64,000 nt of DNA from Oxalicibacterium faecigallinarum (GTDB lineage: Bacteria > Pseudomonadota > Gammaproteobacteria > Burkholderiales > Burkholderiaceae_D): positions 248,001 through 312,000 of the forward strand of contig NZ_BMDI01000002.1 in assembly GCF_014635705.1 (NCBI RefSeq), written 5' to 3'. Positions 2,452 to 31,844 of this stretch are shown piece after piece. Position 1 is the stretch's first letter. Each line of letters begins with the position of its first letter. The position numbers and the translations under genes were made by a program. The notes beneath the pieces were generated by a model. It saw only the letters and a list, made by a program, of their open reading frames with translations, did not search any database and was not told where the DNA came from.

Positions 2452-3414
2452 ATGTTTCCAGAAGTCGGAAGCAGTCGGGCCCAAAGATGTTTGCGCGATT
2501 CAATCTTGTTTAGTCAAAGCCCGTTCGTACTTTTTGTGATCTTTATGATGCATCTGATAAATCGCTTCAAGCATGTACGTAACGTTCTGATCCTTTTTTT
2601 CAGCCTGTTATTGCTGGCGATCTTCATGATCGTCGGTTCCATCGGTCTGGCGATCCAGTCAGCATTTCTCGCATCCGGCAAACGCCGGGAAAATGCCCGT
2701 CGTGTGATTACCGCGACCTTTCGTCTGTACTTCCGCATCCTCGACGATCTGCACATCCTGCGGCTTGATCTGTCGGATATTGATCGTTTGCAGGATGAGC
2801 GCGGTTTGATTCTAACGTCCAATCATCCGTCGCTGCTGGATGCGCTGCTGATCACGTCCCGTCTGCCGAACGTGGTGTGCATCATGAAGGCGCAGGTGTT
2901 GCGCAATGTCTTGTTCGGACATGGCGCGAAGATGGCCGGATATATTCCCAATGACTCGATCCGCACGATTGTCAGTGATGCGAGCCGGGAACTGACGGAG
3001 GTTGGCAGCCAGTTGCTGCTGTTTCCCGAGGGGACGCGCAGCCGTAACGGCAAGATCAATCCGTTTCAGGGAACGGTGGGCGTGATTGCACGACGTACCA
3101 ACGCCGATGTGCAGACCATCGTGATTGAATCCGAATCCGGTTTTCTTGGAAAAGGCTGGCCGGTCTGGCGCGCACCTGCGTTCCCTGTACAGATCCGTGT
3201 CTATGCCGGCAAACGTTTTTCCGTGAAAGAAGAGGGCAAGCTGTTTGTCGAGCAATTGCAGCGTTATTATGAGCAGGAACTGCAAGACGCAGGGCCAACG
3301 GAGACGGAAGCTGCATCCGTCACGTTGCTTCCCGCCAGTCAGGCAGTGATAGAAGAGACTTGCGACGAGCTGGTATCAGAAGAATTGATTTCAAACGGCC
3401 GATCGTTCAAATAA
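2452..3414 (+). CDS. 1-acyl-sn-glycerol-3-phosphate acyltransferase-like protein (PlsC family)
   Basis: This is a membrane-anchored acyltransferase of the PlsC/LPLAT family, 320 residues from the first ATG. A hydrophobic segment lies near residues 45-72, the H-x4-D motif is NHPSLLDA (H125, D130), and the glycerophosphate-binding motif FPEGTRS starts near 191. Such enzymes occur in aryl-polyene and xanthomonadin clusters, where they are thought to attach the polyene or a fatty acid to the lipid anchor; the acceptor here is unknown. An alternative ATG at 2545 (MMHLINRF) would remove 31 residues of uncertain value; neither start has a strong ribosome binding site. It is first in a tightly packed operon. 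The family call is firm, the substrate is inferred from context. Confidence 0.85.
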   Translation: MFPEVGSSRAQRCLRDSILFSQSPFVLFVIFMMHLINRFKHVRNVLILFFSLLLLAIFMIVGSIGLAIQSAFLASGKRRENARRVITATFRLYFRILDDLHILRLDLSDIDRLQDERGLILTSNHPSLLDALLITSRLPNVVCIMKAQVLRNVLFGHGAKMAGYIPNDSIRTIVSDASRELTEVGSQLLLFPEGTRSRNGKINPFQGTVGVIARRTNADVQTIVIESESGFLGKGWPVWRAPAFPVQIRVYAGKRFSVKEEGKLFVEQLQRYYEQELQDAGPTETEAASVTLLPASQAVIEETCDELVSEELISNGRSFK

Positions 3415-3441
3415 GTAAAACTAATTATTAAATAGTGCTGC

Positions 3442-4200
3442 ATGCAAGCGTCATCCACCCATCTCGTTCTCATTCCCAGTTACAACCCCGGTGCCGCCGT
3501 CTATGCGACGGTGGCCTCGGCGCGTGCGCAATGGGCGCCCGTCTGGGTCGTTGTCGATGGCAGCACCGACGGTTCGGCCGAGCAATTGCAGCGGCTGGCT
3601 GCAGAAGATCCTGATCTGCATGTGATTGTGCTGCCGGAAAATCGCGGTAAAGGGGCAGCCGTGCTGCATGGCATCGAGCTCGCTCTGCAGCAGGGGTACA
3701 CGCATGTGCTGACCATGGACTCTGACGGTCAGCACGATGCATCGATGATTCCGACCTTCATGCAGAAGTCGATCGCCGATCCGGCCGCGATGGTGCTGGG
3801 AGTGCCGGTATTTGATGCCAGTGCACCCCGTATCCGTGTCAATGGACGCAAGGTGTCGAACACGCTGGCCAACGTGGTAAGTGGTGGTGCCGGGATTGGC
3901 GACTCGCTGTTCGGATTCCGTGTGTATCCGGCGCGTGCGCTGGCCGAGATCATGCGCAGCAATCCGTGGATGCGTCGTTTTGATTTTGATCCGGAAGCGG
4001 TCATCCGCTTGTGCTGGCGCGGGATACGTCCGATCAATGTACCGTGCAAGGTGCGTTACCTGACAGAATCGGAAGGCGGTGTGTCGCATTTCAATTACTG
4101 GCGCGATAACAAATTGCTGGCTGGTATGTACACGCGCCTGCTCTTCGGTTTTGCCATCCGATTGCCGATTCTGGTGCTGCGCAAGTTGGGGTTGCCGTAA
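3442..4200 (+). CDS. Family 2 glycosyltransferase (aryl-polyene cluster)
   Basis: A 252-residue GT2-fold enzyme of the DPM/DPG-synthase-like group that would transfer a sugar from a nucleotide or lipid-linked donor. The N-terminal IPSYNPG, the VVDGST motif near residues 38-42 and the metal-binding D-x-D in TMDSDGQHD (D93, D95) are all present. There is no long C-terminal membrane domain, so it is probably peripheral. It sits 27 bp after the acyltransferase gene, as glycosyltransferases commonly do in aryl-polyene clusters, and probably builds the sugar part of the lipid anchor. The start has no obvious Shine-Dalgarno sequence and the upstream spacer is AT-rich. Confidence 0.85.
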   Translation: MQASSTHLVLIPSYNPGAAVYATVASARAQWAPVWVVVDGSTDGSAEQLQRLAAEDPDLHVIVLPENRGKGAAVLHGIELALQQGYTHVLTMDSDGQHDASMIPTFMQKSIADPAAMVLGVPVFDASAPRIRVNGRKVSNTLANVVSGGAGIGDSLFGFRVYPARALAEIMRSNPWMRRFDFDPEAVIRLCWRGIRPINVPCKVRYLTESEGGVSHFNYWRDNKLLAGMYTRLLFGFAIRLPILVLRKLGLP

Positions 4201-4312
4201 TCCGTTTGCAGTAACAAATGCTTGCTTTTTTTGCATCACGACTACCTTATACTGTGCGTCTGGTTTGTTGTGTCCATCCGTGCGCAGAAGAATTTTTGCC
4301 GAGTCGCTTTTC

Positions 4313-4981: not shown

Positions 4982-4986
4982 GCGAC

Positions 4987-5952
4987 ATGCACGCCGATTC
5001 TTCCAGCTCAAAGGCTTCGACCGTTCCCGACGAGGTGTCGGTTACGGCCGAAGAGTGGACACAAAAGAAGGAGCGCGGGTGTCTGGCGGCACTCAAGGCA
5101 ATGGTGTGGTTTGCCACGACATTTGGTCGTCCGTTGTCGCGCGTGCTGCTGTATCCGGTGGTTGCCTATTATGTGCTGACCGCATCCGATGCCGTGGCGA
5201 CCTCACGCTTGTATCTGTCCCGTGTGTTCGGTCGTGCGGCGCGACGCGCTGAAGTTTTCCGTCATATCTATACCTTTGCCAGTGTGTTGCTCGATCGCGT
5301 GTATTTCTTGCGTGGCAATGCAGAGAAGTTCGATGTGCGCGTCGTGTCCGATCATTATATGGAGCACGATGTCGCAGCGCGTTCCAAAGGTGTGTTTCTG
5401 ATGGGGGCGCACATGGGCAGTTTTGAGGTCGTGCGCATGGTCTCACGTCAGTGTGACGACCTCAAACTGGTCCTGCTGATGTATGAAGAGAATGCCCGCA
5501 AGATCGGCGCCTTGATGAATGCCATCAATCCGGCGGCACAACAGGAAATCGTGGCGCTCGGCAATCTGAGTGCGATGCTGACAGTCAAGGACAGGCTGGC
5601 CGAAGGCGCGTTGGTCGGCATCCTTGCCGACCGCTCCATCGGCAGCGAAAAAACAGCAATGCTGCCATTTCTTGGCGTGCCGGCACCCTTTGCGATGGGC
5701 CCTTTCCGCATGGCGGCCATGATGCGTCGTCCGGTATTTCTGATGATGGGCCTTTATCTGGGCGGTAATCGTTACGAGATCCATATTGAACGCATCGCCG
5801 ATTTCTCGGATGCGGCAGATGGTACGCGTTGCAACACCGAAGAGCAGATCACGGCTGCCATGACGCATTACGTGTCGCGACTTGAATATTTTGCGAAGCG
5901 TGCACCGTACAACTGGTTCAATTTCTTCGACTTCTGGCAAGGGCAGGCATGA
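4987..5952 (+). CDS. LpxL/HtrB-family lipid acyltransferase
   Basis: A 321-residue protein of the lysophospholipid (lipid A) acyltransferase family, which uses acyl-ACP to acylate a lipid on the inner-membrane face. The catalytic H-x4-E motif is in GAHMGSFEVV (H142, E147), and the C-terminal half has the ADRSIGSEKTAMLPFLG block typical of aryl-polyene-associated members. It lies between the COG4648-like membrane protein and the first halogenase-like flavoprotein; its stop overlaps the next start by 4 bp (ATGA). Together with the PlsC-like enzyme at the operon start, it suggests that the product is anchored to a doubly acylated lipid. Substrates are inferred. Confidence 0.85.
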   Translation: MHADSSSSKASTVPDEVSVTAEEWTQKKERGCLAALKAMVWFATTFGRPLSRVLLYPVVAYYVLTASDAVATSRLYLSRVFGRAARRAEVFRHIYTFASVLLDRVYFLRGNAEKFDVRVVSDHYMEHDVAARSKGVFLMGAHMGSFEVVRMVSRQCDDLKLVLLMYEENARKIGALMNAINPAAQQEIVALGNLSAMLTVKDRLAEGALVGILADRSIGSEKTAMLPFLGVPAPFAMGPFRMAAMMRRPVFLMMGLYLGGNRYEIHIERIADFSDAADGTRCNTEEQITAAMTHYVSRLEYFAKRAPYNWFNFFDFWQGQA

Positions 5953-7613
5953 TGAGCGGAACGGCTACCACGCAACACTATGACGTTGTCATCATGGGCG
6001 GAGGTCTGGCCGGTTTGACGCTGTCGCTGCAATTGCGGCAGCGCTTTGCGGATTTATCGATTCTGGTGATCGAGCGAAGGGCGCATCCGGTGCCGCTGGC
6101 GGCACACAAGGTGGGTGAATCATCGGTCGAGATCGCCGCCCATTACTTTGATTCCGTCCTCGGACTGAAGTCGCATCTGGAAAGCGAGCAGATTCGCAAG
6201 TTTGGCTTCCGCTTCTTTTTTTCTGAAGGGCGTCGCGATTTCGATCAGGTCACCGAACTGGGTGGCAGCACCGTCTTTCCGACCCAGTCCTATCAGATTG
6301 ATCGCGGTATTTTCGAGAATCGTCTTGCCGAAATGGCGCAGGCAGCAGGTGTCACGTTTGTCGACGCTGCCATGATTCGCCGCTTTGACATCGGCGAGAA
6401 GGATACCTCGCATCAGGTGACGTATGAGGCGCATGGGCAGACCATCTCGGTGACCGGTCGCTGGCTGATCGACTCATCCGGTCGCGCAGGTCTGATCAAG
6501 CGCAAGCTCGATCTGGCGCAAGACAATGCACACAAGGCCGGTGCCGTATGGTTCCGTATCGGCAAGCACATCAACATGCACGACTGGTCGCAGGATCAAG
6601 ACTGGATCAATGCATGCAATCCGCCGGATCGCTGGCGTTCGACCAGTCATCTGGTTGGCGAAGGCTATTGGGTTTGGCTGATCCCGCTATCGTCGGGTTC
6701 GCACTCGGTCGGCATCGTTGCCGACCCGGCTGTGCATCCGGTCGAAAAAATGAATACCTTCGACAAGGCAATGGACTGGCTGCAAAGGTACCAGCCACGC
6801 CTCTTTGAACATCTCGATGGCGAGCGTGACAAGCTGCAGGACTTTGCCTTCTTCAAGCACTTTTCGTACGGTTGCAAGCAAATGTATTGCGGTGAACGGC
6901 GCTGGGCGCTGACAGGGGAGGCAGGATTGTTTCTTGATCCCTTCTATTCGCCCGGCGGTGATTTCATTGCGATTGGCAATACCAACATCACGGAGCTGAT
7001 TGCGCATGATCGTGCCAACGGGCCGGTCGTCATGGTGGCCGATTACTTCCAGAAAATTTACTTCTCCCTGTACGAATCGATGTTGCCTGTCTATCAGGAC
7101 CAGTATCGGCTGTTTGGCGATCCGGAAGTGCTGCCGCACAAGGTGACCTGGGATTACGCTTATTACTGGGGTGTGATGTGCCAATTGTTTTTTCAGAATC
7201 GTTTGACGGATCTGATCACGATGGCGCGTTTGCAAAAACGGTTGGCGCACATGATGCAGGTCAACGCGGCGGTTCAGGCTTTCTTCCGCGCATGGAGTCA
7301 GCACAGCGCACGTCGCAATCCTGCCCAACTGCTCGATCAGACGTCAATCGACTGGTTTGCCGAGCTCAATCGCGGGCTCAATGATCAGCTCGACGACGCG
7401 CAGTTCATGCAACGCATGGACGACAATCTGGTGCTGTTGCAGCATCTGGCTGCGGCCTTCATCACGCGTGCATGTGACGAACATCCCGCATTGGCGGACA
7501 GCCAGGCTTGCGAAGATTTACGCGCATTGCTGGATGAAGCGATTCTGTCGGCTTTGCCCGTCATGGGCGCGCCCACCTTGTTTACCAATGCAGCTTATGC
7601 TCGGGCGGGCTGA
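5949..7613 (+). CDS. Flavin-dependent halogenase-like oxidoreductase 1
   Basis: A 554-residue FAD-dependent protein of the tryptophan-halogenase/geranylgeranyl-reductase superfamily. The N-terminal dinucleotide fold has GGGLAG at 17-22, a HKVGESS block near 53-59 and the DSSGRAGL FAD segment near 175. It carries W-x-W-x-I-P as WVWLIP (241-246) and F-x-x-P-x-x-S-x-G as FLDPFYSPG (328-336), both signatures associated with flavin-dependent halogenases. The C-terminal extension of about 200 residues is longer than in standard halogenases and may bind a carrier-protein-linked substrate. A desaturase or oxidase on the polyene chain is an alternative. It is translationally coupled to the preceding acyltransferase gene. 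A second relative lies at 13108-14478. Confidence 0.8.
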   Translation: MMSGTATTQHYDVVIMGGGLAGLTLSLQLRQRFADLSILVIERRAHPVPLAAHKVGESSVEIAAHYFDSVLGLKSHLESEQIRKFGFRFFFSEGRRDFDQVTELGGSTVFPTQSYQIDRGIFENRLAEMAQAAGVTFVDAAMIRRFDIGEKDTSHQVTYEAHGQTISVTGRWLIDSSGRAGLIKRKLDLAQDNAHKAGAVWFRIGKHINMHDWSQDQDWINACNPPDRWRSTSHLVGEGYWVWLIPLSSGSHSVGIVADPAVHPVEKMNTFDKAMDWLQRYQPRLFEHLDGERDKLQDFAFFKHFSYGCKQMYCGERRWALTGEAGLFLDPFYSPGGDFIAIGNTNITELIAHDRANGPVVMVADYFQKIYFSLYESMLPVYQDQYRLFGDPEVLPHKVTWDYAYYWGVMCQLFFQNRLTDLITMARLQKRLAHMMQVNAAVQAFFRAWSQHSARRNPAQLLDQTSIDWFAELNRGLNDQLDDAQFMQRMDDNLVLLQHLAAAFITRACDEHPALADSQACEDLRALLDEAILSALPVMGAPTLFTNAAYARAG

Positions 7614-7616
7614 TTG

Positions 7617-8426
7617 ATGAAAGCGCCCATGCAAACGACGAAATGGCAGCCCAGCGGCTTCCTCAAGGCATCGGCGGTCTTGCACGTTGGCGCGGCGGCT
7701 TCGGCACTTGTCTGGCCGGGTACCTTGGGCATGAGTGTGGCCAGCGTGATTGCCAATCATGCTGCGATTACCGCGATCGGCTTGTGGCCGCGCAGTACCT
7801 GGCTGGGACCGAATGTGTTGCGTTTGCCGCATGACAGACAGGAAGTGGCGATCACGATTGATGATGGTCCTGATCCAGAAGTCACCCCACGTGTGCTGGA
7901 TTTACTGGCCAAACATGATGTCAAGGCAACCTTCTTTTGCATTGCAGACAAGGTGGCTGCGCAGCCAGCGCTGGCGCGACGTATCGTTGATGCCGGTCAT
8001 CACATCGAAAATCACAGCATGAAGCATCGTCATTATTTTTCGATGATGGGTATGGGCGGCTTGCGCAAGGAACTGATGCAGGCGCAGCAGGTCATTGCTG
8101 AAGCGACAGGCAGAACGCCGCGTTATTTTCGCGCACCAGCAGGCTTGCGTAATCCGTTTCTTGATCCGGTTCTGCACGCCCTTGACCTGCAACTGGTGAG
8201 TTGGACGCGACGCGGTTTCGATACGCGGACTGGCGATGCCGCACTTGTAACGCGACGGTTGCTCAACGGGACGCGTGCTGGCGATATTCTGCTGCTGCAT
8301 GATGGCAATGCGGCGCGTGATGTCCATGGTCAGCCTGTCATTCTCGATGTGTTGGCCCACGTGTTGACTGCCCTGAAACAACAGCATTTGCAATGCGTCA
8401 CCATCGAACAGGGATTGCGTGCTTAG
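7617..8426 (+). CDS. Polysaccharide deacetylase family protein (NodB domain)
   Basis: A 269-residue protein with a hydrophobic N-terminal region (about 15-60) and a NodB-type carbohydrate esterase domain (about 75-260). Motif 1, TIDDGPD (D82, D83), motif 2, the metal-binding H-x3-H in ENHSMKH (H133, H137), and motif 3, FRAPAG, are all present, so it is probably catalytically competent. It would remove an N- or O-acetyl group from a sugar, most likely the glycosyl part of the lipid anchor made by the GT2 enzyme in the same operon. The start is the ATG at 7617; a TTG immediately upstream is less likely. A separate role on peptidoglycan or exopolysaccharide cannot be excluded. Confidence 0.83.
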   Translation: MKAPMQTTKWQPSGFLKASAVLHVGAAASALVWPGTLGMSVASVIANHAAITAIGLWPRSTWLGPNVLRLPHDRQEVAITIDDGPDPEVTPRVLDLLAKHDVKATFFCIADKVAAQPALARRIVDAGHHIENHSMKHRHYFSMMGMGGLRKELMQAQQVIAEATGRTPRYFRAPAGLRNPFLDPVLHALDLQLVSWTRRGFDTRTGDAALVTRRLLNGTRAGDILLLHDGNAARDVHGQPVILDVLAHVLTALKQQHLQCVTIEQGLRA

Positions 8427-8481
8427 GTACACAATCATTCCATTATTGATTTGCGATTTATCCGGAGAACGGTCTTAACGC

Positions 8482-9687
8482 ATGCAAGCACTCGAATTAA
8501 AACATTACACACTGAGTACCTGTCTGGGGCTCGGGCGGGATGCGAACTGGCAAAAGCTGGCGGCGCAGCAGGGCGCGCTGAAGCCTTGCGATTTTGAGAC
8601 GATCGATTTGCCGACATGGATTGGCGAGGTGCCCGGCGTCGATGCGGTTGTCATTCGTGCTGCGCTGGCTGATTTTGATTGCCGCAATAATCGTCTCGCG
8701 CAACTGGCCTTGCAGCAGGACGGATTCATCGAAAGTGTGCAGCAAGTCATTGCCCAGGTGGGTGCTGATCGCGTGGGCCTGTTTCTCGGCACCAGCACGT
8801 CAGGTATCTTGCAAACCGAACTGGCCTATCGTCGTCGCGAGACAGATGCCGACGGCAAACTGGGCGCGCTGCCGCCCGACTTCCGTTATGCGGAGACACA
8901 CAATACGTATTCTGTCGCCGCATTCGTCGCAGCCTTTCTGGGTGTGCGTGGTCCGGCGTTGACGGTCTCGTCTGCCTGTTCGTCGAGTGCCAAGGTGTTT
9001 GGTAATGCGGCACGCATGATCGAGGCCGGCGTGATCGATGCCGCTGTGGTTGGCGGTGTCGACACCTTGTGCCTGACGACGCTCTATGGTTTCAACTCTT
9101 TGCAACTGCTGTCGCCGGAACCGGCACAGCCTTATGGCGAAGGCCGGCAAGGTATCTCGATCGGGGAAGGTGCAGCGTTTGCCTTGCTGACAAAAGTGCA
9201 GGGCGAGGCACAACCCGGTTCGATTCTGCTGTGCGGTGTCGGTGAGTCAAGCGATGCACACCACATGTCATCGCCGCATCCGGAAGGCCTGGGTGCGCAG
9301 ATGGCGATGAAGTCTGCACTGGCATCTGCCGGCATCACGCCGGACCGGATTGGGTACATCAATCTGCATGGCACGGCAACGCCAAGCAATGATGCGGCAG
9401 AAGGGCGTGCTGTGCATGCCGTTTTTGGTCGTCATACCGCGTGCAGTTCTACCAAAGGTGCCACCGGGCATACGCTCGGTGCGGCTGGCGGCGTGGAAGC
9501 CGTGATCTGTGCAATGGCGATGACCAATGGCATGCTGCCGGCAGGCATCAATACCCAAGCCGTCGATGCTGCGCTCGATGTCGATTACCTGCTGCAGAAT
9601 CGCGCCGAACCGATCGACTATGCGCTGAACAATTCCTTTGGTTTTGGCGGGTCTAACTGCAGTCTGGTGCTGGGAGTCGTACGATGA
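8482..9687 (+). CDS. Beta-ketoacyl-ACP synthase (FabF-like ketosynthase, ApeO/ApeR type)
   Basis: A 401-residue condensing enzyme with the full Cys-His-His triad: C166 in SSACSSSA, H296 in NLHGTAT and H330 in GATGHTLG. It would elongate the ACP-bound aryl starter with malonyl-ACP in a type II system. The stop overlaps the next start, which encodes a chain-length-factor-like protein, by 4 bp, the usual arrangement for a KS:CLF heterodimer. In the characterised Xenorhabdus aryl-polyene pathway, as I recall, ApeO works with ApeC in this way while ApeR is a separate KS; here only one complete KS is visible. Confidence 0.9.
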   Translation: MQALELKHYTLSTCLGLGRDANWQKLAAQQGALKPCDFETIDLPTWIGEVPGVDAVVIRAALADFDCRNNRLAQLALQQDGFIESVQQVIAQVGADRVGLFLGTSTSGILQTELAYRRRETDADGKLGALPPDFRYAETHNTYSVAAFVAAFLGVRGPALTVSSACSSSAKVFGNAARMIEAGVIDAAVVGGVDTLCLTTLYGFNSLQLLSPEPAQPYGEGRQGISIGEGAAFALLTKVQGEAQPGSILLCGVGESSDAHHMSSPHPEGLGAQMAMKSALASAGITPDRIGYINLHGTATPSNDAAEGRAVHAVFGRHTACSSTKGATGHTLGAAGGVEAVICAMAMTNGMLPAGINTQAVDAALDVDYLLQNRAEPIDYALNNSFGFGGSNCSLVLGVVR

Positions 9688-10481: not shown

Positions 10482-10519
10482 GCGATCAACGATCCGCTTT
10501 TCAAACCAGGGAGAAAATA

Positions 10520-11083: not shown

Positions 11084-11105
11084 TTCTGCGACTCGCTGCA
11101 CCATC

Positions 11106-11145: not shown

Positions 11146-11156
11146 GAGCGTGATGA

Positions 11157-12155: not shown

Positions 12156-12287
12156 GATTGTGTTTGTCGTGAAAAGCGAGGATACGTGATGTATGGACTA
12201 TGACGCATCAAAGAAGTGCCCGGCAATCAGAACGGGCTTGTATCCACAGCGTGTAACCGCACAGTGCGTTCGCGGGGTATCCGTATA

Positions 12288-13049: not shown

Positions 13050-13107
13050 CGTATGATGTGCGCTTGTTCCGGCGAGAGCGGAACGCATGATTTCCGGAGA
13101 GAAAACA

Positions 13108-14478
13108 ATGCAGACAACAGATGAACTGGCGACCGCAGCCGACCCGATGACGGCGACTTCTCGCGCGCAGGGTGTGTCAGGTACACCCATACGCACACAA
13201 GTACTGATCATCGGCGGCGGGCCGGCAGGTTCGACAGCAGCAGCGTTGCTGGCACAGGATGGTATTGATGTCACGCTGCTGGAAAAAGCCGTGCATCCAC
13301 GTTTTCATATTGGCGAGTCATTGTTGCCGGCCAATATCCCATTGCTGGAGAAGCTGGGTGTGAAGGAAAAGGTGGAGGCGATCGGTATGCCGAAGTGGGG
13401 CGTGGAGTTCAACTCGATCGAGTCGGACATGAAGACCCATATCGAGTTTGCGGAAGCCTTCGATAAATCAATGCCCTATGCGTATCAGGTGCGTCGTGCC
13501 GATTTCGATCACATCCTGATCGACAATGCCCGGGATAAAGGTGCGAATGTCACGGAAGGTTGTCGGGTTCGCACGGTGGATTTCCAGAAAGCGCATGTTG
13601 CGATCAAGGCGCAACTTGCTGATGGCCGCCAGCAGGACTATCTGGCCGATTACGTGATCGATGCTTCCGGACGCGACACGTTCCTTGCCAATCAATTCAA
13701 AAGCAAACAAAAGAATCGCAAGCACAACAGCTCTGCGCTGTATAGTCATTTCACTGGTGTCGAGCGTTATGAAGGCAAGCGCGAAGGTGATATCAGCCTG
13801 TTCTGGTTTGAACATGGCTGGTTCTGGCTGATCCCGTTATCCGACGGCACAACCAGTGTCGGGGCGGTGTGCTGGCCGCATTATCTGGCTTCGCGCAAGG
13901 TCAGCGTCGAGCAGTTCCTGATGGATACGATTGCAATGGCGCCGAAGCTGGCGGATCGCATGAAGAATGCCGTGCGCGTCGGCGAGGTGCATGCGACCGG
14001 CAATTACGCCTACACCAGCAGCAAGAGCTACGGCGATCGCTGCATGTTGCTCGGTGATGCCTACGCCTTCATCGATCCGGTGTTTTCTTCCGGCGTGTTG
14101 CTGGCAATGCAGAGCGCATTTGTCGGTGTCGATGCGGTCAAGGCTTGCTTGCAGGAGCCGAAAAAGGCTGCGCGCGAACTGGCGAAGTTCGATCACCACA
14201 TGCGTCGCGGACCATCGATTTTCTCGTGGTTCATTTACCGTGTGACCAATCCTGCCATGCGTTTTCTGTTCCTCAATCCCCGTGACTTCCTGCAGACCAA
14301 GGCGGCGGTCATGTCGGTGCTGGCTGGTGACATCTTTCACAACAAGGCCATCTGGCCATCGCTGTATGTCTTCAAAGGCATCTACTACTTGTCGTCTCTG
14401 TTCAATCCGATGCGTACGCTGGATGCGTGGCGTCGGCGCAAGATCAATATTCGTGATCCGGAAGCAGGATCGGCGTGA
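13108..14478 (+). CDS. Flavin-dependent halogenase-like oxidoreductase 2
   Basis: A 456-residue FAD-dependent protein closely following the fold of carrier-protein-dependent flavin halogenases. It has GGGPAG at 36-41, the PRFHIGESLLP block near 64-74, W-x-W-x-I-P as WFWLIP (238-243) and F-x-x-P-x-x-S-x-G as FIDPVFSSG (321-329). Start choice: a GGAGAG Shine-Dalgarno 8 bp upstream supports ATG 13108 over the in-frame ATG at 13087. Xanthomonadins are brominated aryl polyenes and their cluster encodes a related halogenase, so this is the better candidate of the two for ring halogenation. A hydroxylase/oxidase function is the main alternative. It ends 8 bp before a strong bidirectional terminator. 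Confidence 0.83.
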   Translation: MQTTDELATAADPMTATSRAQGVSGTPIRTQVLIIGGGPAGSTAAALLAQDGIDVTLLEKAVHPRFHIGESLLPANIPLLEKLGVKEKVEAIGMPKWGVEFNSIESDMKTHIEFAEAFDKSMPYAYQVRRADFDHILIDNARDKGANVTEGCRVRTVDFQKAHVAIKAQLADGRQQDYLADYVIDASGRDTFLANQFKSKQKNRKHNSSALYSHFTGVERYEGKREGDISLFWFEHGWFWLIPLSDGTTSVGAVCWPHYLASRKVSVEQFLMDTIAMAPKLADRMKNAVRVGEVHATGNYAYTSSKSYGDRCMLLGDAYAFIDPVFSSGVLLAMQSAFVGVDAVKACLQEPKKAARELAKFDHHMRRGPSIFSWFIYRVTNPAMRFLFLNPRDFLQTKAAVMSVLAGDIFHNKAIWPSLYVFKGIYYLSSLFNPMRTLDAWRRRKINIRDPEAGSA

Positions 14479-14485
14479 TGCCGGT

Positions 14486-14527
14486 GACAATAAAAAAGCC
14501 CGCAGCATTGCGGGCTTTTTTATTGTC
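14486..14527 (+). terminator. Bidirectional intrinsic terminator with 19-bp perfect stem
   Basis: A 19-bp perfect inverted repeat (left arm 14486-14504, right arm 14509-14527) with a GCAT tetraloop. The GC core GCCCGCA/TGCGGGC is flanked by six A on one side and six T on the other. It separates the converging halogenase-like gene and the reductase that ends the minus-strand operon, and can work in both directions. Confidence 0.94.
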
Positions 14528-14538
14528 CATCCTTTTGA

Positions 14539-15258
14539 TCAGATCATCCCGCCATTGATCGAGATGATCTGGCCGGAGATATAGGCAGCCTGTTCTGACG
14601 CAAGAAATGCAACCAGATCAGCCACTTCTTCCGGCTTGCCTGCGCGCTTCATCGGCACCATGTTCTGGATCAGCTTGTCGTCGAACGTGCCATCGATCAT
14701 GTCGGTGGCAATGATGCCCGGCGCGATGGCATTAACCGTGATGCCGCGACTTGCCAGTTCCAGTGAGAGTGATTTGGTGGCCGAATGCAAGGCGCCTTTG
14801 GCAGCGGAATAATTGACTTGCCCACGATTGCCGGCGACAGCGGCGACCGAAGAGATATTGATGATGCGGCCCCAGCGTGTACGGATCATTGGCATGGTCA
14901 AAGGCTGGGTGACGTTGAAGAAGCCATGCAGCGAAACATCGATGACGTCATGCCATTGCGTTGGCGACATGCCGGGGAAGACGGCATCCGAATGAATCCC
15001 GGCGTTATTGACCAGCACTTGAATCGGACCGGCCTCTGTCAATTGTTCCAGCGCTGTGTGCGTCTCTTCCGCATTCGTGATATTGAACGCGGCAACTTCA
15101 GCGCTGCCGCCATCGGCAATGATGGCATCGCACACAGCTTGTGCCTTGTCGCGCCCGCGGTTGGCATGCACGATCACATGCAATCCATCCCGTGCCAGAC
15201 GTTTGCAGATGGCGCTGCCGATACCGCCGCTGCCACCCGTTACCAATGCAAGCTTCAT
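14539..15258 (-). CDS. 3-oxoacyl-ACP reductase (FabG-like, ApeQ type)
   Basis: A 239-residue short-chain dehydrogenase that would reduce the 3-keto group of the ACP-bound growing polyene with NADPH. The cofactor motif TGGSGGIG spans 7-14, NNAG is at 84-87 and the catalytic residues are S137 (INISS), Y150 and K154 (YSAAK). It is the last gene of the minus-strand operon and its start overlaps the preceding dehydratase stop by 4 bp. Together with the dehydratases upstream it completes the ketoreduction-dehydration half of the type II cycle. A housekeeping FabG role is unlikely given the location. Confidence 0.92.
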   Translation of the reverse strand: MKLALVTGGSGGIGSAICKRLARDGLHVIVHANRGRDKAQAVCDAIIADGGSAEVAAFNITNAEETHTALEQLTEAGPIQVLVNNAGIHSDAVFPGMSPTQWHDVIDVSLHGFFNVTQPLTMPMIRTRWGRIINISSVAAVAGNRGQVNYSAAKGALHSATKSLSLELASRGITVNAIAPGIIATDMIDGTFDDKLIQNMVPMKRAGKPEEVADLVAFLASEQAAYISGQIISINGGMI

Positions 15259-15743
15259 GCTGCAGATCCTTTCATGTTGTCGGTGACCATGCTGGCATCG
15301 ATGATGACCGTGGCACGGCCATCGAGTAATGGCTTTTGTGAGTGTTGGCCGCGTACGGCGAACTGGTAAAGAATGCAGTTGGGTTCGCTGTGTGTCAGCG
15401 TTACTTCGACCTGCAAAGACTCATCCAGATCATCAAGGCGGGCAGCATGGAATGTGGTGTTGCGCACGCTTGCCAGAAAACCGGCTGTGGGGCGTTCCGT
15501 GACTGGTGCGTCGGCTTTGGATGTCATCAGCAACGCGGTATGAACCGCCATGGCCTGGGCCGCATATTCAATGCCGTTGGCAGCGCCGAGCCGGCCATGC
15601 GCACGCAAGGGATTGGTCGGTGACAGGTGGCTCGCTGTCACCGCGATCATGCGCGCAGCATCCCAGCTTTCAACCCGATCCAGCAGACACATATCGCCCT
15701 GATGCGGAATATGTGCGGTCATCCATTCGCGATCAATGATCAT
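15255..15743 (-). CDS. Hotdog-fold 3-hydroxyacyl-ACP dehydratase (ApeP-like)
   Basis: A 162-residue hotdog-fold protein of the FabA/FabZ-like group found in aryl-polyene clusters. The active-site histidine is probably in IPHQGDM (H14), and the central helix appears in ANGIEYAAQAMAVH near 55-68. In the Xenorhabdus pathway, as I recall, ApeP pairs with ApeI as the dehydratase. A second, shorter FabZ-like dehydratase gene lies in the same operon at 19554-19844, so the same pairing is possible here. Start choice: the ATG at 15743 overlaps the stop of the upstream methyltransferase by 4 bp; starting at 15761 would add six residues and remove the coupling. Confidence 0.85.
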   Translation of the reverse strand: MIIDREWMTAHIPHQGDMCLLDRVESWDAARMIAVTASHLSPTNPLRAHGRLGAANGIEYAAQAMAVHTALLMTSKADAPVTERPTAGFLASVRNTTFHAARLDDLDESLQVEVTLTHSEPNCILYQFAVRGQHSQKPLLDGRATVIIDASMVTDNMKGSAA

Positions 15744-16474
15744 GTTTTCGCCTTGTGGCAAACCAGCAGGATATTGGCGAAGGGCGTGCCTTCATGCATC
15801 GGCATGGCTTGCACGGAAAAACCCAGAGCCGTGATATCACGTTGCCAGTCGGCGATGCTGCGACAGAAGGTTGGCAGTGTCTTGTGGCCGCGAATGCTGG
15901 TCACGACATTGTCGACCCAGTTACTGATCTTGAATGGCAGGCCACCCGCTGCATCACCGACACGCAACAACAGCACGCCGTCATCGGTCAGGCAGGCATG
16001 CACACGACGCAGCACATCGTCCTGCGCAGGAAAGTCGACGTAGTGCAAGACATCCAGAATCACGACTGCATCCGATGGCGGGAAGTTGGCAGTGCACATG
16101 TTGCCGACTTCGAACGTGGCGCGGGTGCTGTCCTTGTGCAAGGCTGCGCGCGCGCGATCAACATCGCGCGGCATCAGTTCAATGCCATGCACGTGTGCAA
16201 TGGCTGGTGGCGCTGGCCAGTTTGCCGGCCATTCGCCTTTGGCGTGTTGTGCCTGGGCAGATAACAGCCAGGAAGAAAGCAAACCTTGCCCGCAGCCGAT
16301 GTCCAGTACGCGAATGCCGCCATCCCGATGCGGCAGGAGATTGCGTGCCAGCATGCCTTTGAATACGGGATCGCGCCCCAGTTTGCCTTGCGCAAAATGC
16401 CAGGCAAAACGTCCTGCTTGCTGGTAGGGCGCACACGCGGCGGTCAATAGATTTTGGATGGCATTGATCGTCAT
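15740..16474 (-). CDS. SAM-dependent methyltransferase (class I)
   Basis: A 244-residue Rossmann-fold methyltransferase. Motif I is VLDIGCGQGLL near 60-70, the acidic/adenine-binding loop is around VHGIELMPRDVDRA, and DVLHYVDFPAQ follows near 145. It probably methylates the aryl head group (O- or C-methylation), a common tailoring step of aryl polyenes; the exact position is unknown. It lies in the middle of the minus-strand operon with near-zero spacing. A GTG two codons upstream (16480) is an alternative start. Confidence 0.83.
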   Translation of the reverse strand: MTINAIQNLLTAACAPYQQAGRFAWHFAQGKLGRDPVFKGMLARNLLPHRDGGIRVLDIGCGQGLLSSWLLSAQAQHAKGEWPANWPAPPAIAHVHGIELMPRDVDRARAALHKDSTRATFEVGNMCTANFPPSDAVVILDVLHYVDFPAQDDVLRRVHACLTDDGVLLLRVGDAAGGLPFKISNWVDNVVTSIRGHKTLPTFCRSIADWQRDITALGFSVQAMPMHEGTPFANILLVCHKAKT

Positions 16475-16481
16475 GGTCACG

Positions 16482-18956
16482 TCATTTCTTGGATGAGTCG
16501 GATGATTTGGAATGCAGCATGCTTGAGAAGACGGCCGAATACACCAGCGCCAGAATCACGCCGATGCCGACTGTCTTGCCGATGGCACTGAGAATAGGCA
16601 CGCTGGAAAAGCCGAGCACGCCAAAGCCGATGACCGTCGTCAGATTGGCAAAGATCAATGAGGCCAGCGTAGTTGGCTTGATCTGCGCAACGACCTCCTG
16701 TGCGCCGGTTTCAGGATCGGTCACCACGGTGGTCGGCGGCTGCGCAAAGAACAGGGCATAGTTGGAGCCGACTGCCACGATCAGCAACAGGCCGACCAGA
16801 TGCAGGATCGTCATGCGTTCGCCGGTCAGCATGAAGAATGCCGCAACGCTGAGAACGGCGGTAATCAGTGGCACCATCACGCGCGCCAGACCGCCCGCCG
16901 AACGAATGCTGAAACCCAGCAGCACGGTCATGGCGGCCAGCCCGCACAAGGCCAGTAACACCGCTTCGCGCATATAGCCGCTATACAGCTTGTCGGTTTC
17001 GATCTTCAAATCGATGAAATAGGCCTCCTTCACTCCCGATTTTTCCAGCTCGCTACGCATCAAGGCGGCATCGATCAGATGATCGTCGGCGTTGGCAGTG
17101 AGTGGCAACAACGCGGTGGTTTCGTCTTGCTGTTCGATCAGCAGTGAATCGGTCGCCAGCGCCATCGACGTGCCGGTCAGATCTTTGCGCGACAGAAGGC
17201 GTGATTCCAGCTTGTCTGGTTGTGTGGCGGTTTGCGCGAGCGTATCAACCGACGCGATGAAGGGGGCAAGGACGGATGCCTGAAACGGTAATCCGGCGAT
17301 GGCCTGCGCCACACGCTGATTGAGCGTTGCCGCATCCGGCAGGCTGGCCAGTCTGGCTTTCTGCATGGCCTGACTTGGCAGATAGCGTGTCGGGCTTTCA
17401 AACGCTGCCAGATGACCGTGTTCCACCATGCCATCCAGACGCGCTGCGACTTTTTCGGATGCCTGTAGCGCATCTTCCAGCGTCTTGCCTTTGACGACGA
17501 CCAGATAGCGCACATCGGGGGCACCAATATCCTTGCGCAATTTTTCGTCGAGGTCTTTGTCTTGCTGGCTGACAGGGCTCAATGCACCGAGTTCTGGTTG
17601 CCAGAGGTCATTGCGATTGATCCACAATATGACGCAGGCAATGGTCACCAGACCAAGCACGACAAGGCGCAGACGTCGCAAGACGATGATGGCTCTCTCC
17701 AGGGCAAAACCAATATGCGACAGATCGCGGACCACGAAGTCACGTGGCAACAGTGAGGGCAGGACATACCGTGTGACGAAGGCGGCCGAGACCAGCCCGG
17801 CGATCGTAAACAGGCCAAGTTGCGCCAGACCGGGAAAGCCCGAGAACAGCAGGGCACCAAAACCAGACATTGATGTCAAGACGCCAAGCCGAATCGTCGG
17901 CCATGATTTTTTTGCCCAGTCTGCACTGTTCTTTGCGCTGCCAGACTGAATGAACAGATAGATCGCGTAATCGATGGCTTCACCAATCAGCGTGGTACCA
18001 AAGCCGAGTGTGATGGCATGCACGCTGCCAAAACCGAGACTGACGGCAATCGTGCCCGCCAGAACGCCGCTCAAAACGGGCGCCAGACCAAGCAGCACGG
18101 CGATCCCGGAGCGATAAACGATCAACAGGATCGTCATGATCAACACGGCACTGATGATGGCGAACAGGCCGGCTTCCTTGCTGATGGTATTGCGCGCATT
18201 GACCCCGAACACGCCGGGACCGGTCATGATCATTGTGGCTTTGACAGCTTGCGGGAGTGTCTTGGCGACGTCTGCTTTTGCCGCCTCGAATTTTTCGCGG
18301 ATATGGGTGATGGCCATTTCCTGACCATCGGTGTCGGAGCCGAGGGCGCGTGTTTGCGCCAGAATCAGCGCACGGCCGCCATCTTTGGCCACCCAGACTC
18401 CTTGTACCTTGCGGGGCTGCTGACCACTGTTGAACTGGGTAATCAGTGTTGCCATTTCGGCCGTCGGATCTTGCGGCAGGATATCTTTCACCAGCATGCC
18501 TGCTGGCGAGGCCAATAGATCGACAGTTTCACTAAAGGCCTCGTGCAAACCTTCGACGCTAAAGCGCTCCGGCGTCACGCCGGGACTCAGCAGATAGCGA
18601 TTGTTGAAGAGATAGGCACGATCCTTTTCCTGATTGACGGGCTCGCCGTTGTTGACGGAAACGAACTCATCATTGCTGCGCATCCTTTGCGCGAGTGCTT
18701 TGGACAGCGCTGCATGGGTTGGCGTATCGGCACCATCGATGCCGATCAGGATCATGCGCGAGACCATGCCGTCGCGCAGTTGCTCGACCAGCAGCTTTTG
18801 TTCCTGCGTCGGATTGTTCGGCAGGAAAGCCGTGAGGTCGGCGGTGAAGGTCGAGCGGAACAGAATGCCGACACCAATCAGCAGCAGGATCAGCCAGACG
18901 CCGATTGCCTTCCATGATCGTGGCGGTGCAGCATGGTGTTGCGCGGACGTGGTCAT
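16482..18956 (-). CDS. MMPL/RND-family exporter
   Basis: An 824-residue inner-membrane transporter of the MMPL type. It starts with one membrane helix (about 15-33), then a large periplasmic domain, a block of about five helices (near 250-400), a second helix near 430, a second periplasmic loop and a final helix block (near 660-800). This two-fold layout is the RND/MMPL topology. Aryl-polyene clusters characteristically encode such an exporter next to a LolA-like carrier, which together are thought to move the polyene lipid from the inner to the outer membrane. Its start overlaps the LolA-like gene stop by 4 bp. Substrate assignment is contextual. Confidence 0.9.
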   Translation of the reverse strand: MTTSAQHHAAPPRSWKAIGVWLILLLIGVGILFRSTFTADLTAFLPNNPTQEQKLLVEQLRDGMVSRMILIGIDGADTPTHAALSKALAQRMRSNDEFVSVNNGEPVNQEKDRAYLFNNRYLLSPGVTPERFSVEGLHEAFSETVDLLASPAGMLVKDILPQDPTAEMATLITQFNSGQQPRKVQGVWVAKDGGRALILAQTRALGSDTDGQEMAITHIREKFEAAKADVAKTLPQAVKATMIMTGPGVFGVNARNTISKEAGLFAIISAVLIMTILLIVYRSGIAVLLGLAPVLSGVLAGTIAVSLGFGSVHAITLGFGTTLIGEAIDYAIYLFIQSGSAKNSADWAKKSWPTIRLGVLTSMSGFGALLFSGFPGLAQLGLFTIAGLVSAAFVTRYVLPSLLPRDFVVRDLSHIGFALERAIIVLRRLRLVVLGLVTIACVILWINRNDLWQPELGALSPVSQQDKDLDEKLRKDIGAPDVRYLVVVKGKTLEDALQASEKVAARLDGMVEHGHLAAFESPTRYLPSQAMQKARLASLPDAATLNQRVAQAIAGLPFQASVLAPFIASVDTLAQTATQPDKLESRLLSRKDLTGTSMALATDSLLIEQQDETTALLPLTANADDHLIDAALMRSELEKSGVKEAYFIDLKIETDKLYSGYMREAVLLALCGLAAMTVLLGFSIRSAGGLARVMVPLITAVLSVAAFFMLTGERMTILHLVGLLLIVAVGSNYALFFAQPPTTVVTDPETGAQEVVAQIKPTTLASLIFANLTTVIGFGVLGFSSVPILSAIGKTVGIGVILALVYSAVFSSMLHSKSSDSSKK

Positions 18957-19561
18957 GGGCGCGGCTTCTCGATCGTCATGACGGAACGGTCGCCATCCGC
19001 CTGCTGGACTTCGACTTCGCGCACTTCACCGGCCGTGCCGCTGAGCGTGATGCGCTTGACCTTCTGGCGTGCCTGCAGATTGCTTGGTGTCAGTGCCAGT
19101 TTCCATTGCTCGCGTGTCCCGGTCAGGGCAACCACATAGTTGAGTTCGAGCGAACGACGGTCGCCTGCCAGCGTGGCGCGGATGCTTTCGATCAATGCGG
19201 CCAGCTCTGGCGACTCGTTGAGATCGATCGCAAATTTATGTTTGCCGCGTTCCAGCGTAATCATGTCGCGCTCAAGCAGCATGCGTTCCGGTTTGGGTTT
19301 GATGGTTCGCTTTTCCAGCTTGTCGGGTGGCGTGTAAAACATTTCGCCCGAGGATTCGACCGGACGATCCAGTGTCGAGATGTATTTTTTTTCGACGAAA
19401 TTGACTTTGGCTGGTTTGGTCTGCGCGAGGCTCGCCATCAACTGATCCATGGTCCAGTCGGCAGCATGAGCCAGATTGCATCCCACAGCCAGGATGGTGA
19501 TGCCGAGCGTGCGTGTAACGAACGATGTTGCGCGCATAAAGCAGAAGGTGTGATTACGCAT
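18953..19561 (-). CDS. LolA-like outer-membrane lipid carrier
   Basis: A 202-residue periplasmic protein with a signal sequence (TLGITILAVGCNLAHA, cleaved near residue 35) and a LolA/LolB-like beta fold, as in the LolA-related proteins of aryl-polyene clusters. It would shield the hydrophobic polyene lipid across the periplasm for the MMPL exporter encoded next. I start at the ATG at 19561, which overlaps the preceding dehydratase gene by 8 bp; an internal ATG at 19537 also gives a usable signal peptide. It does not look like the housekeeping LolA. Confidence 0.8.
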   Translation of the reverse strand: MRNHTFCFMRATSFVTRTLGITILAVGCNLAHAADWTMDQLMASLAQTKPAKVNFVEKKYISTLDRPVESSGEMFYTPPDKLEKRTIKPKPERMLLERDMITLERGKHKFAIDLNESPELAALIESIRATLAGDRRSLELNYVVALTGTREQWKLALTPSNLQARQKVKRITLSGTAGEVREVEVQQADGDRSVMTIEKPRP

Positions 19562-19844
19562 GAAAGACTCCCGAGACGGCAATGTGCTCCGCATCCTTGA
19601 TGTCAAACTGGATATTGCCGGCAGCATTGGTTTCGTAATGAATGACCAGCGTGGTATCCGGCAAAACCGGCCGCAGGAATTTGACGCTGTTGAGTCTGCA
19701 GCTGACCAGTTCGCGTTGCAGATGTTGCGTGATCGCATGCAATGCCAGGTCCAGCAGCACAACGCCGGGCGTGATCGGCATGCCGGGGAAATGACCGGCA
19801 AACGAAGGATGATCGGCAGGGATATGCAGCGTGAGTGTTTGCAT
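19554..19844 (-). CDS. Small FabZ-like 3-hydroxyacyl-ACP dehydratase (ApeI-like)
   Basis: A 96-residue single hotdog domain with the FabZ active-site motif HPSFAGHFPGMPITPG (catalytic H18). Typical FabZ proteins are about 145-155 residues, so this is a short form as found in aryl-polyene clusters. It may act as a dehydratase, probably with the ApeP-like protein, or as a thioesterase-like protein. Its start overlaps the ligase stop by 1 nt, and its end overlaps the LolA-like gene by 8 bp. Confidence 0.85.
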   Translation of the reverse strand: MQTLTLHIPADHPSFAGHFPGMPITPGVVLLDLALHAITQHLQRELVSCRLNSVKFLRPVLPDTTLVIHYETNAAGNIQFDIKDAEHIAVSGVFHA

Positions 19845-21253
19845 CAGTGCGTGTCCGTTTTATTGGTGGCAAAGGTAGCCGCCAGTTCGGCCAGTGCGGC
19901 ATGGGGCAGTTTGCCGGTCGCGTTGCGTGGCAGTTGCGGCACCTTGAGCAAGGGGCGGGGCATGAAGGCTGGATCGATTTTTTCGCGCAACACGCTCAGA
20001 ATCGTTTCCGTCTCGACCAGCGGGGCGACGACAAATGCCTGCAATCGCGTCACTTCGCCGGACGTCTTTTCCGGCGGCATGTAGAACGCGCCATCTTCGA
20101 CGCCGGGAATCGCATTCAGATGATGGTTCAAGTAGGCGAGAGAGCTGCGCTTGCCTGCAATGTTGATCATATCTGCCATGCGGCCATGCATCAGAAAGCG
20201 CCCTGCCTCTTTCAGCTCGATGGCATCGTTCATCGGCATCGGCACTTCGACATGACCGCCGCTAATCCACATGCGTTCGTCACTGGCGTCGTCCGGATGG
20301 CGTTGCATCTGAATGTTCGGGAACAGGTTCCATTCCTGCGACACAGTCGGACGTCGCGTGGCGATCTGACCCGTTTCGGTGCTGCCGTAGATTTCGCATA
20401 ACGGCGCCTTGAATGCCTGTTCCGACTGCGCTGCCAGTTGCGGTGCGAGAGGTGCGGTTGCGGATACGATCAGGCTGGTTGATGGCAGCGCGGTTTGCAT
20501 GCTGATCAACTGGCGCAAATGCACGGGCGTGGTGACCAGTACGCGTGGGGCGGGAACCTGCTCCAGCGTGCGGCAGATATCGGCAGGGTAGAACCACGGT
20601 GCGCTCGCCATGGCAAAGCCATTGATCAGCGGCATCAGCACAGTCGACTCAAAGCCATACATATGTTGTGGCGGTACGGTACCGACGATCGTGCAGCCGG
20701 ATGCGTTCAGCAGTCCCAGTTGTTGTGCTTCCGCCTGCACATTCCGTACGAGTGCGCCCCACGTTTTCCTGTGGGCGACCGGGAGCCCGGTCGAGCCGGA
20801 AGTAAAGACATAGGCCACCACCTGATCATCGACGAGCTGCGGTACGGCAAACGTGATGTTTTCTTCTGGGCGCAGTGTCGGAAACGCGGTTTGCGGCAGG
20901 GCGATTGTGCAGTTCGCCTGATCGGTCAGACAGCTTGCATCAGGCGCAAACCCTTGCAGTTGCCGTATGGTTTCCGCTGTCCGTGTCGATGGCAGAAGAT
21001 TGATCTTGCCCGCCACCATGATCGCGCACAGCGCCACCAGAAAACGGTAGCGGTCGTGACAGTCATTGAGGACATGCGTGGACGCCGGCAGTTGAGGAAT
21101 CAGTTGCCTGACATCGGACAGGAACTGCGCAGCCGTAACCGCATGCGTGTCGCGCCATGCCACGATGCGTGACGGATCCGTGTGCGGCAACAAGGGCACG
21201 AATGGGCGCAACGAGGCTGGCGGCGCGCCATCCGGTCGATCTGCATGGCGCAT
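19844..21253 (-). CDS. AMP-dependent acyl/aryl-ACP ligase (ApeH-like)
   Basis: A 469-residue ANL-superfamily adenylate-forming enzyme. The ATP-binding P-loop is FTSGSTGLP near 143-151, the core motif is EIYGSTETGQ near 275 and a smaller C-terminal domain follows. It would activate the aryl starter, here probably 3- or 4-hydroxybenzoate from the chorismatase, and load it onto the ACP encoded directly upstream (10-bp gap). ATG 21253 (MRHADRPD) is chosen because upstream in-frame sequence lies inside the ACP gene. Specificity cannot be read from the sequence. Confidence 0.87.
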   Translation of the reverse strand: MRHADRPDGAPPASLRPFVPLLPHTDPSRIVAWRDTHAVTAAQFLSDVRQLIPQLPASTHVLNDCHDRYRFLVALCAIMVAGKINLLPSTRTAETIRQLQGFAPDASCLTDQANCTIALPQTAFPTLRPEENITFAVPQLVDDQVVAYVFTSGSTGLPVAHRKTWGALVRNVQAEAQQLGLLNASGCTIVGTVPPQHMYGFESTVLMPLINGFAMASAPWFYPADICRTLEQVPAPRVLVTTPVHLRQLISMQTALPSTSLIVSATAPLAPQLAAQSEQAFKAPLCEIYGSTETGQIATRRPTVSQEWNLFPNIQMQRHPDDASDERMWISGGHVEVPMPMNDAIELKEAGRFLMHGRMADMINIAGKRSSLAYLNHHLNAIPGVEDGAFYMPPEKTSGEVTRLQAFVVAPLVETETILSVLREKIDPAFMPRPLLKVPQLPRNATGKLPHAALAELAATFATNKTDTH

Positions 21254-21263
21254 GAACAACGAC

Positions 21264-21551
21264 TTACGAAGCCTTGTTGGCTGCGATGTAGTCCGACAGC
21301 GAGCGCAGCGAGGCAAAGATTTTTTCGTTGTCTTCGTGATCGGCGCGCAACTGGATGCCGTAGTTTTTGGAGACCACCAGAGCGACTTCGAGGATGTCGA
21401 TCGAATCCAGACCCAGGCCGTTGCCATAGAGGGGTTCATCCGGTGCGATCGAAGCAGGATCGGTATCGAGGTTCAGAGCGTGAACGATCAGTTTTGCCAC
21501 TTCCTGCATGAAAGCTGGATCGGCGGAAGCGTTGTTGTTTGTCGTTGTCAT
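21264..21551 (-). CDS. Acyl carrier protein of the aryl-polyene system
   Basis: A 95-residue acyl carrier protein with the phosphopantetheine-attachment motif GLGLDSIDILE (S50). The N-terminal 12 residues (TTTNNNASA) are a polar tail not found in housekeeping AcpP. It is the first gene of the eight-gene minus-strand operon. Some aryl-polyene clusters encode two ACPs (ApeE, ApeF); only this one is visible here. The usual housekeeping acpP context (fabD-fabG-acpP-fabF) is absent, so this is a dedicated carrier. Confidence 0.93.
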   Translation of the reverse strand: MTTTNNNASADPAFMQEVAKLIVHALNLDTDPASIAPDEPLYGNGLGLDSIDILEVALVVSKNYGIQLRADHEDNEKIFASLRSLSDYIAANKAS

Positions 21552-22631: not shown

Positions 22632-22640
22632 GGAACTCTT

Positions 22641-30766: not shown

Positions 30767-30774
30767 GAGACAGC

Positions 30775-31841: not shown

Positions 31842-31844
31842 GCC

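Follow-up and report, generated by a model that had tools for sequence, protein, structure and literature searches.

A predicted xanthomonadin-type aryl-polyene biosynthesis and export locus with two halogenase-like flavoproteins in Oxalicibacterium faecigallinarum

What is made by the run of genes at positions 2452–21551 of a 64,000-nucleotide stretch of the Oxalicibacterium faecigallinarum genome (contig NZ_BMDI01000002.1, positions 248,001 to 312,000; hereafter the window), and could the product be halogenated? An initial annotation of the window had placed here a biosynthetic cluster of about 21 genes for an aryl-polyene or xanthomonadin-like pigment. The cluster is confirmed, and the gene count was close: there are 20 protein genes, arranged as four strand blocks (+, 2452–11083; −, 11157–12155; +, 12216–14478; −, 14539–21551), in a genome (G000) of 3.33 Mb on 10 contigs. 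With high probability, the locus encodes the biosynthesis and export of a xanthomonadin-type aryl polyene. Its gene set looks complete for a yellow pigment of the membrane, akin to the xanthomonadins. This assignment rests on gene content, family matches, catalytic signatures, linkage, and co-occurrence, while the order of the steps, the 3-hydroxybenzoate (3-HBA) starter, the lipid anchor, and the location would follow from analogy with relatives.

Protein families were assigned by Pfam and NCBIfam profile searches of the window proteins. The searches back most of the core calls: an acyltransferase, a GT2 glycosyltransferase, an LpxL-like acyltransferase, two flavoproteins of the Trp_halogenase fold (FAD1 and FAD2), a NodB deacetylase, a ketosynthase (KS), a half-length KS or chain-length factor (CLF), an FkbO/Hyg5 chorismatase, a ketoreductase (KR), a methyltransferase (MT), an MMPL exporter, LolA, an AMP-ligase, and an acyl carrier protein (ACP). 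Most family calls of the initial annotation are thereby supported, and its filing of the cluster, most of whose core functions are assigned by family matches, was right. The parts that characterize a xanthomonadin-type cluster are present. These are a XanB2-type chorismatase with residues as in PDB entry 5ag3, a KS accompanied by a half-length CLF that keeps its Gln, a KR with a pair of ApeI- and ApeP-like dehydratases (DH2 and DH1, the latter recognized through its family profile alone), an aryl:ACP ligase of predicted substrate with a dedicated ACP, and LolA and MMPL/RND export genes. All 12 of the aligned sequences share the CLF Gln (Q154), and we assume that it corresponds to Q166 of Lysobacter; in the half-length Lysobacter partner a Gln is described as essential (PMC3691225). 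One ACP was found, and Xanthomonas clusters likewise have one, as read from PMC8253772.

For comparison, genome contigs were scanned using the chorismatase alignment; at least 596 stretches were matched, at least 570 of which encode relatives, and the best 80 are the named loci used throughout. In locus L173, the order ACP–FAD2–chorismatase–ligase matches the Xanthomonas order ACP–XanB1–XanB2–AMP-ligase (PMC3838355), which supports the xanthomonadin-type assignment. The gene order is kept in L017, L018, and L027, as far as the fetched stretches reach.

The chorismatase matches 5ag3 (9.1e-45) and FkbO (4bps, 2.6e-44) nearly equally overall. It carries SGTAS and a Cys (DICR), as does 5ag3 (SGTAS, DVCR), whereas FkbO has SATAG and DIAR. 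We take 5ag3, titled putative pteridine-dependent dioxygenase in PDB, to be Hyg5, and the SGTAS/SATAG and Cys positions to be markers of chorismatase type. By these two positions the enzyme appears Hyg5/XanB2-like, and its product specificity is a prediction; the product of a chorismatase is reported not to be predictable from sequence alone (PMC3949708). Since a UbiC is present elsewhere in the same genome, the chorismatase need not serve quinones, and a role as the sole source of 4-hydroxybenzoate (4-HBA) for ubiquinone was set aside.

In the proposed route, the chorismatase would convert chorismate to 3-HBA, which the ligase would load onto the ACP; KS–CLF, KR, and the DH1/DH2 pair would extend this starter to a conjugated polyene. 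MT would methylate the ring hydroxyl, and FAD2, perhaps FAD1 too, may halogenate the ring or the chain. The acyltransferases would join the polyene to a lipid on which GT2 would place the sugar and NodB would de-N-acetylate it; transport of the completed lipid as far as the outer membrane would fall to MMPL and LolA. The product is thus likely to be a 3-methoxyphenyl polyene lipid, possibly halogenated. Together, GT2 and NodB suggest that the anchor is an amino sugar. In Xenorhabdus, the aryl-polyene lipid contains a galactosamine-phosphate-glycerol part, and GT2 and NodB families also have roles in polysaccharide and lipid A pathways. The structure of the Xenorhabdus lipid has been solved (PMC8253772).

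Several points weigh against the assignment or parts of it. The starter could be 4-HBA, since XanB2-type enzymes make both 3-HBA and 4-HBA. The putative sugar anchor leans on the literature and on a distant GT2 match, the best NCBIfam model being PpgS (polyprenyl-phospho-GalNAc synthase, NF058614) at 55.9 bits, far below the cut-off of 370. Three proteins (TM, LP, and ABH) have no Pfam or NCBIfam match above cut-off, and DH1 has no significant match of its own in these databases; its dehydratase call comes only through a nine-sequence profile, and when three DH1 relatives were scanned, two matched the ApeP-like family (0.12 and 0.18) and the third matched nothing. No flavin reductase or thioesterase was seen among the 20 cluster genes.

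FAD1 and FAD2 both look like halogenases, judged by motifs and fold. Each has the catalytic Lys and the WxWxIP sequence, which we take to be the motifs of flavin-dependent halogenases; activity is a prediction, the two motifs being a requirement for a halogenase rather than proof of activity. Both are kept in 21 of 21 aligned FAD1 rows (12 distinct genes, several fetched twice) and in 65 of 67 FAD2 rows (window included, some fetched twice), and the two remaining FAD2 rows do not span both motifs (L087 is without the Lys region, and one piece of L089 shows neither). The FAD2 set takes in the remote members L155 and L117, and three of its rows contain one stop or unread base. When a profile was built from 11 FAD1 proteins, it matched 20 PDB sequences at 1e-5, PltA being the best. 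Of these, 17 have halogenase in their titles, several of them variants of a single protein; 3nix has the title flavoprotein/dehydrogenase. CmlS and ChlB4, also matched, are presumably halogenases. Among the 14 best PDB matches of FAD2, 13 are of the halogenase kind, and the weaker ones include many monooxygenases. FAD1 and FAD2 share with PltA, ChlB4, and CmlS the FAD fold (by profile), the Lys, and WxWxIP, while FAD1 is distant from PltA and CmlS, with GEAG...DPFYSPG versus their GDAA...DP.FS.G. An AlphaFold model of FAD1, for which three sequences served as input, was of low quality (mean pLDDT 44) and was not used.

The strongest alternative is that FAD1 and FAD2 are ring or chain oxygenases or reductases and that the pigment is halogen-free, a reading that we consider a serious one, if somewhat short of an even chance. 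The Azoarcus pigment is non-brominated despite the annotation of arcA as a halogenase (PMC3949708). Neither protein comes near the NCBIfam equivalog cut-offs. Individual FAD1 members have hits to geranylgeranyl reductase and QhpG models too, again far below cut-offs (the best hit of L117 is QhpG). Moreover, FAD2 is missing from the cluster of some relatives; L174, of the same family, is one example, and none was found in its genome at 1e-60. These points are set against the near-universal retention of Lys and WxWxIP and the preponderance of halogenases among the PDB matches of FAD1 and the best ones of FAD2. The halogenated product proposed by the initial annotation is possible, with the Azoarcus pigment as the counterpoint.

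The genomic partners of the two flavoproteins differ. We searched 369 genomes of the class (E up to 1e-60 for FAD2 and up to 1e-30 for FAD1) and found FAD2 in 35 and the chorismatase in 67. The chorismatase is present in 27 of the 35 FAD2 genomes and absent in 8, and in 21 of the 35 (own included) FAD2 lies within 5 kb of it; FAD2 sits with the chorismatase. FAD1 was found in only eight genomes, all of which contain the chorismatase (hypergeometric 4.5e-6, own genome excluded; the genomes are not independent). The two genes are within 25 kb in five of the eight (own included) and on separate contigs in G477, G153, and G373. At six of the seven FAD1 loci outside the genus, FAD1 is on the same strand as CLF and ~0.1–2.2 kb from it; the stretch of the seventh, L116, is too short. 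In G482, from another family, the chorismatase, FAD2, and FAD1 share one region of ~23 kb. FAD1 is thus not an oddity of a single genus, with homologues of 40–56% identity in seven other genomes of the 369. A strict bond of FAD1 to KS–CLF does not hold either: a relative (41%) carried by a Janthinobacterium lividum plasmid has a type I polyketide synthase next to it. The relative (L190, NZ_CP139977.1, 17989–19587) is also neighbored by an alpha/beta hydrolase and an aspartyl/asparaginyl beta-hydroxylase-domain protein, with no KS–CLF polyene cluster. Plasmid searches (PLSDB) yielded two FAD1-like and eight chorismatase records. A plasmid of the cyanobacterium Gloeothece verrucosa PCC 7822 (NC_014533.1, PLSDB) has four weaker FAD1 matches, the best of which (35% identity) is annotated as tryptophan 7-halogenase.

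Within the genus, 13 genomes were compared (G484, G485, and G488 were outside the chorismatase survey). A cluster-type KS at 78% identity or more is present in 6 of the 13; a seventh genome, G485, has one at 53%. FAD1, FAD2 (at least 77%), and MT each occur in the same five genomes: G000, G080, G099, G484, and G488. At a single locus (L019), Herminiimonas fonticola (G114) keeps 15 of the 17 remaining cluster genes; AT1 and LP were not found there or in L026 (the same locus, NZ_PTLZ01000001.1), and FAD1, FAD2, and MT are absent from the genome at limits of 1e-20, 1e-20, and 1e-15, respectively. A single gain or loss event could account for the pattern of the three genes. Three genus members without the cluster-type KS (G022, G057, and G489) have a KS of 48–51% identity with a second KS copy nearby (e.g., G022:C23:180985-184381), and in G022 a 31% FAD2 relative adjoins it. 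These KS pairs possibly belong to another polyene cluster type.

One may ask whether the two flavoproteins divide the work. Because FAD2 is tied to the chorismatase, it might act on the aryl ring; because FAD1 is tied to polyketide synthase genes (mostly KS–CLF) and its profile matches best to PltA, a halogenase of carrier-bound substrate, it might act on the ACP-bound polyene chain. Such a split, with FAD1, FAD2, and MT forming a tailoring module that is acquired or lost as a whole, is a speculative and on balance unlikely proposal. If true, the module would set ring methoxylation and the halogenation of both ring and chain, as in the dibrominated xanthomonadin I.

The Xanthomonas product is known to be a brominated aryl-polyene ester. 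The literature covered here (search listings and text from PMC3949708, PMC3691225, PMC3838355, and PMC8253772, with most subscription journals left out) was not seen to credit any tested enzyme with a bromination step. The genus lends itself to a natural comparison: FAD1, FAD2, and MT are present in five genomes, whereas H. fonticola has 15 of the 17 other genes and none of the three. The assignment of halogenation is therefore testable in environmental bacteria. The value of the locus lies in two halogenase-like enzymes with different partners and in a natural relative without FAD1, FAD2, and MT; the enzyme pair is a good way to ask which enzyme halogenates such pigments. Halogenation of the present pigment is possible as far as its genes indicate.

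Is the gene mix unusual? The 80 chorismatase loci were scored by the best tblastn match per locus (at least 35% identity over at least 60 residues); 43 of them reach 20 kb, and absences are therefore uncertain. Relatives of AT1 were found in 68 loci, GT2 in 67, FAD2 in 51, KS in 43, NodB in 21, MT in 9, and FAD1 in 2. Chorismatase, FAD2, and NodB occur together (FAD2 and NodB at 40% identity or more) in 12 of the 80, each on one fetched stretch; FAD1 in addition is rarer (2/80). Among loci reaching 20 kb, 5 of 43 have no KS, GT2, KR, or AT1 relative, so the chorismatase does not always signal a polyene cluster. The loci with such a chorismatase and none of these four genes in ~20 kb are L041, L055, L069, L070, and L084 (four are Hydrogenophaga). 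In the family, 12 of 116 sampled genomes have the chorismatase; among the six genus members in this sample, four have it and two (G022 and G057) do not.

Published relatives point the same way. The xanthomonadin clusters of Xanthomonas are reported to contain XanB2 as well as halogenase genes (PMC3691225, PMC3838355), and one of them is annotated with two halogenase-like genes (PMC3838355). In Azoarcus sp. BH72 the arc genes, divided between two loci, include a halogenase (arcA), a chorismatase (arcB), a methyltransferase (arcM), and a polysaccharide deacetylase (arcN); Dechloromonas, Variovorax, and Sideroxydans are described as having clusters of this kind (PMC3949708). The claim that a chorismatase, two halogenase-like enzymes, and a deacetylase make an unusual combination thus fails, and the suggestion that the product may not have been described is unsafe, brominated aryl polyenes having been described in papers of 1973–1977 cited in PMC3691225. 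The gene mix is already known from relatives, and the cluster is another xanthomonadin-type member.

The closest parallels differ in detail. With the Xanthomonas and Lysobacter xanthomonadin (pig/xan) clusters, the locus has in common XanB2, KS with half-length CLF, KR, ACP, AMP-ligase, acyltransferases, and an exporter (PMC3691225, PMC3838355), with the Lysobacter relative also two dehydratases (PMC3691225), and with Xanthomonas two halogenase-like genes and, through L173, the ACP–XanB1–XanB2–ligase order (PMC3838355). Gene order in the window is different, and the likeness to Xanthomonas is one of description, not of sequence; none of the 80 named loci carries a Xanthomonas title. A search of PMC3691225 and PMC3838355 for that term turned up no deacetylase in pig/xan clusters, and the Lysobacter relative is described as lacking a halogenase (PMC3691225), whereas two halogenase-like genes are present here. 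The E. coli aryl-polyene cluster (apeA–R) shares ligase, ACP, KS, KR, dehydratases, LolA, RND exporter, acyltransferase, and methyltransferase; the ape table in PMC8253772 shows no chorismatase, halogenase, or deacetylase, and E. coli has two ACPs and a thioesterase. The arcuflavin (arc) loci of Azoarcus share halogenase, chorismatase, methyltransferase, deacetylase, exporter, LolA, ligase, and ACP, but are two unlinked loci with one halogenase listed and a dialkylresorcinol (DAR) cluster present (PMC3949708), unlike the single locus with two halogenase-like genes in the window.

Two further explanations fare poorly. The window might hold two adjoining but separate pathways, one for the polyene and one, unrelated to it, for a glycolipid or for lipid A modification (GT2, NodB, and acyltransferases). 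The broader roles of the GT2 and NodB families would allow this, but the frequency of GT2 and AT1 at chorismatase loci (67 and 68 of 80), the adjacency of NodB to KS in L017, L018, L019, L022, and L027, and the glycosyl transferase, deacetylase, and acyltransferases of the published arc loci (PMC3949708) make it very improbable. Least probable of all is an arcuflavin-like hybrid in which the same polyene is esterified to a resorcinol made by DarA/DarB encoded elsewhere in the genome: the arc loci, with much the same genes, do yield a DAR ester (PMC3949708), but no DarB (dialkylresorcinol synthase) above cut-off was found in the genome (DarA was not searched for), where the better of two ketoacyl-ACP synthase III genes scores 33.5 bits against a cut-off of 550 and the second, beside two SDR-like genes, 19.8 bits, and the hybrid was set aside.

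The genes of the xanthomonadin-type cluster are collected in Table 1.

Table 1. Predicted genes of the cluster, with window coordinates and supporting matches.
Gene	Assignment	Position	Strand	Support
AT1	PlsC-type acyltransferase, 320 aa	2452..3414	+	PF01553 5.5e-17
GT2	Glycosyltransferase	3442..4200	+	PF00535 6.9e-23
TM	Membrane protein, 222 aa	4313..4981	+	Start revised; relatives in other clusters
AT2	LpxL-like acyltransferase	4987..5952	+	PF03279 3.8e-11
FAD1	Flavin-dependent halogenase-like	5949..7613	+	Trp_halogenase 2.6e-13; family profile to PltA 1.2e-30
NodB	Polysaccharide deacetylase	7614..8426	+	PF01522 1.4e-32
KS	Ketosynthase, CSSS active site	8482..9687	+	NF006618 536 bits (cut-off 407)
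CLF	Half-length ketosynthase-like chain-length factor	9684..10481	+	PF13723 5.2e-31; Q154 invariant
LP	Small putative lipoprotein, membership uncertain	10520..11083	+	In 2/80 named loci and L018
Chorismatase	Hyg5/XanB2-like by two residue positions	11157..12155	−	PF21168 5.4e-37
ABH	Putative alpha/beta-hydrolase lipoprotein	12216..13049	+	Abhydrolase_1 0.0035, below cut-off; in near relatives
FAD2	Flavin-dependent halogenase-like, XanB1-like position	13087..14478	+	Trp_halogenase 1.4e-35; PDB halogenases ~1e-55
KR	FabG-type ketoreductase	14539..15258	−	NF004200 370.7 bits (cut-off 273)
DH1	ApeP-like dehydratase (weak)	15255..15743	−	Profile A3 to FabA/FabZ 6qsr_B 3.7e-5
MT	S-adenosylmethionine (SAM) methyltransferase	15740..16480	−	PF13649 6.3e-12
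MMPL	MMPL/RND exporter	16482..18956	−	PF03176 3e-14
LolA	LolA-like periplasmic carrier	18953..19561	−	PF19574 2.4e-22 (longer reading frame); NF053544 5.2e-17, below cut-off (revised frame)
DH2	ApeI-like dehydratase, 96 aa	19554..19844	−	PF07977 1e-7, PF22818 1.1e-6, both above cut-off
LIG	AMP-dependent aryl:ACP ligase, substrate inferred	19844..21253	−	PF00501 1.3e-18; start revised
ACP	Acyl carrier protein, DSI phosphopantetheine site	21264..21551	−	NF006617 135.7 bits (cut-off 70)

Three listed open reading frames were overlong, with likely starts at 4313 (TM), 19561 (LolA), and 21253 (ligase), and the true start of ABH is probably downstream of 12216. TM may be ApeG/COG4648-like. The GC content across the window shows no step at the cluster, and the flanks look like ordinary genes: by reading alone, we take the upstream neighbors to be HPr kinase and PTS IIA (621–2188) and the downstream ones to be QueF and threonine dehydratase (21789–24266), followed by PurL from 24910. 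Further downstream, UbiE (30032) and UbiB (32432) score above cut-off and enclose genes of 314 and 205 aa with no match at 1e-20; positions 30032–33994 of the window are probably a ubiquinone operon, ~8 kb past the cluster.

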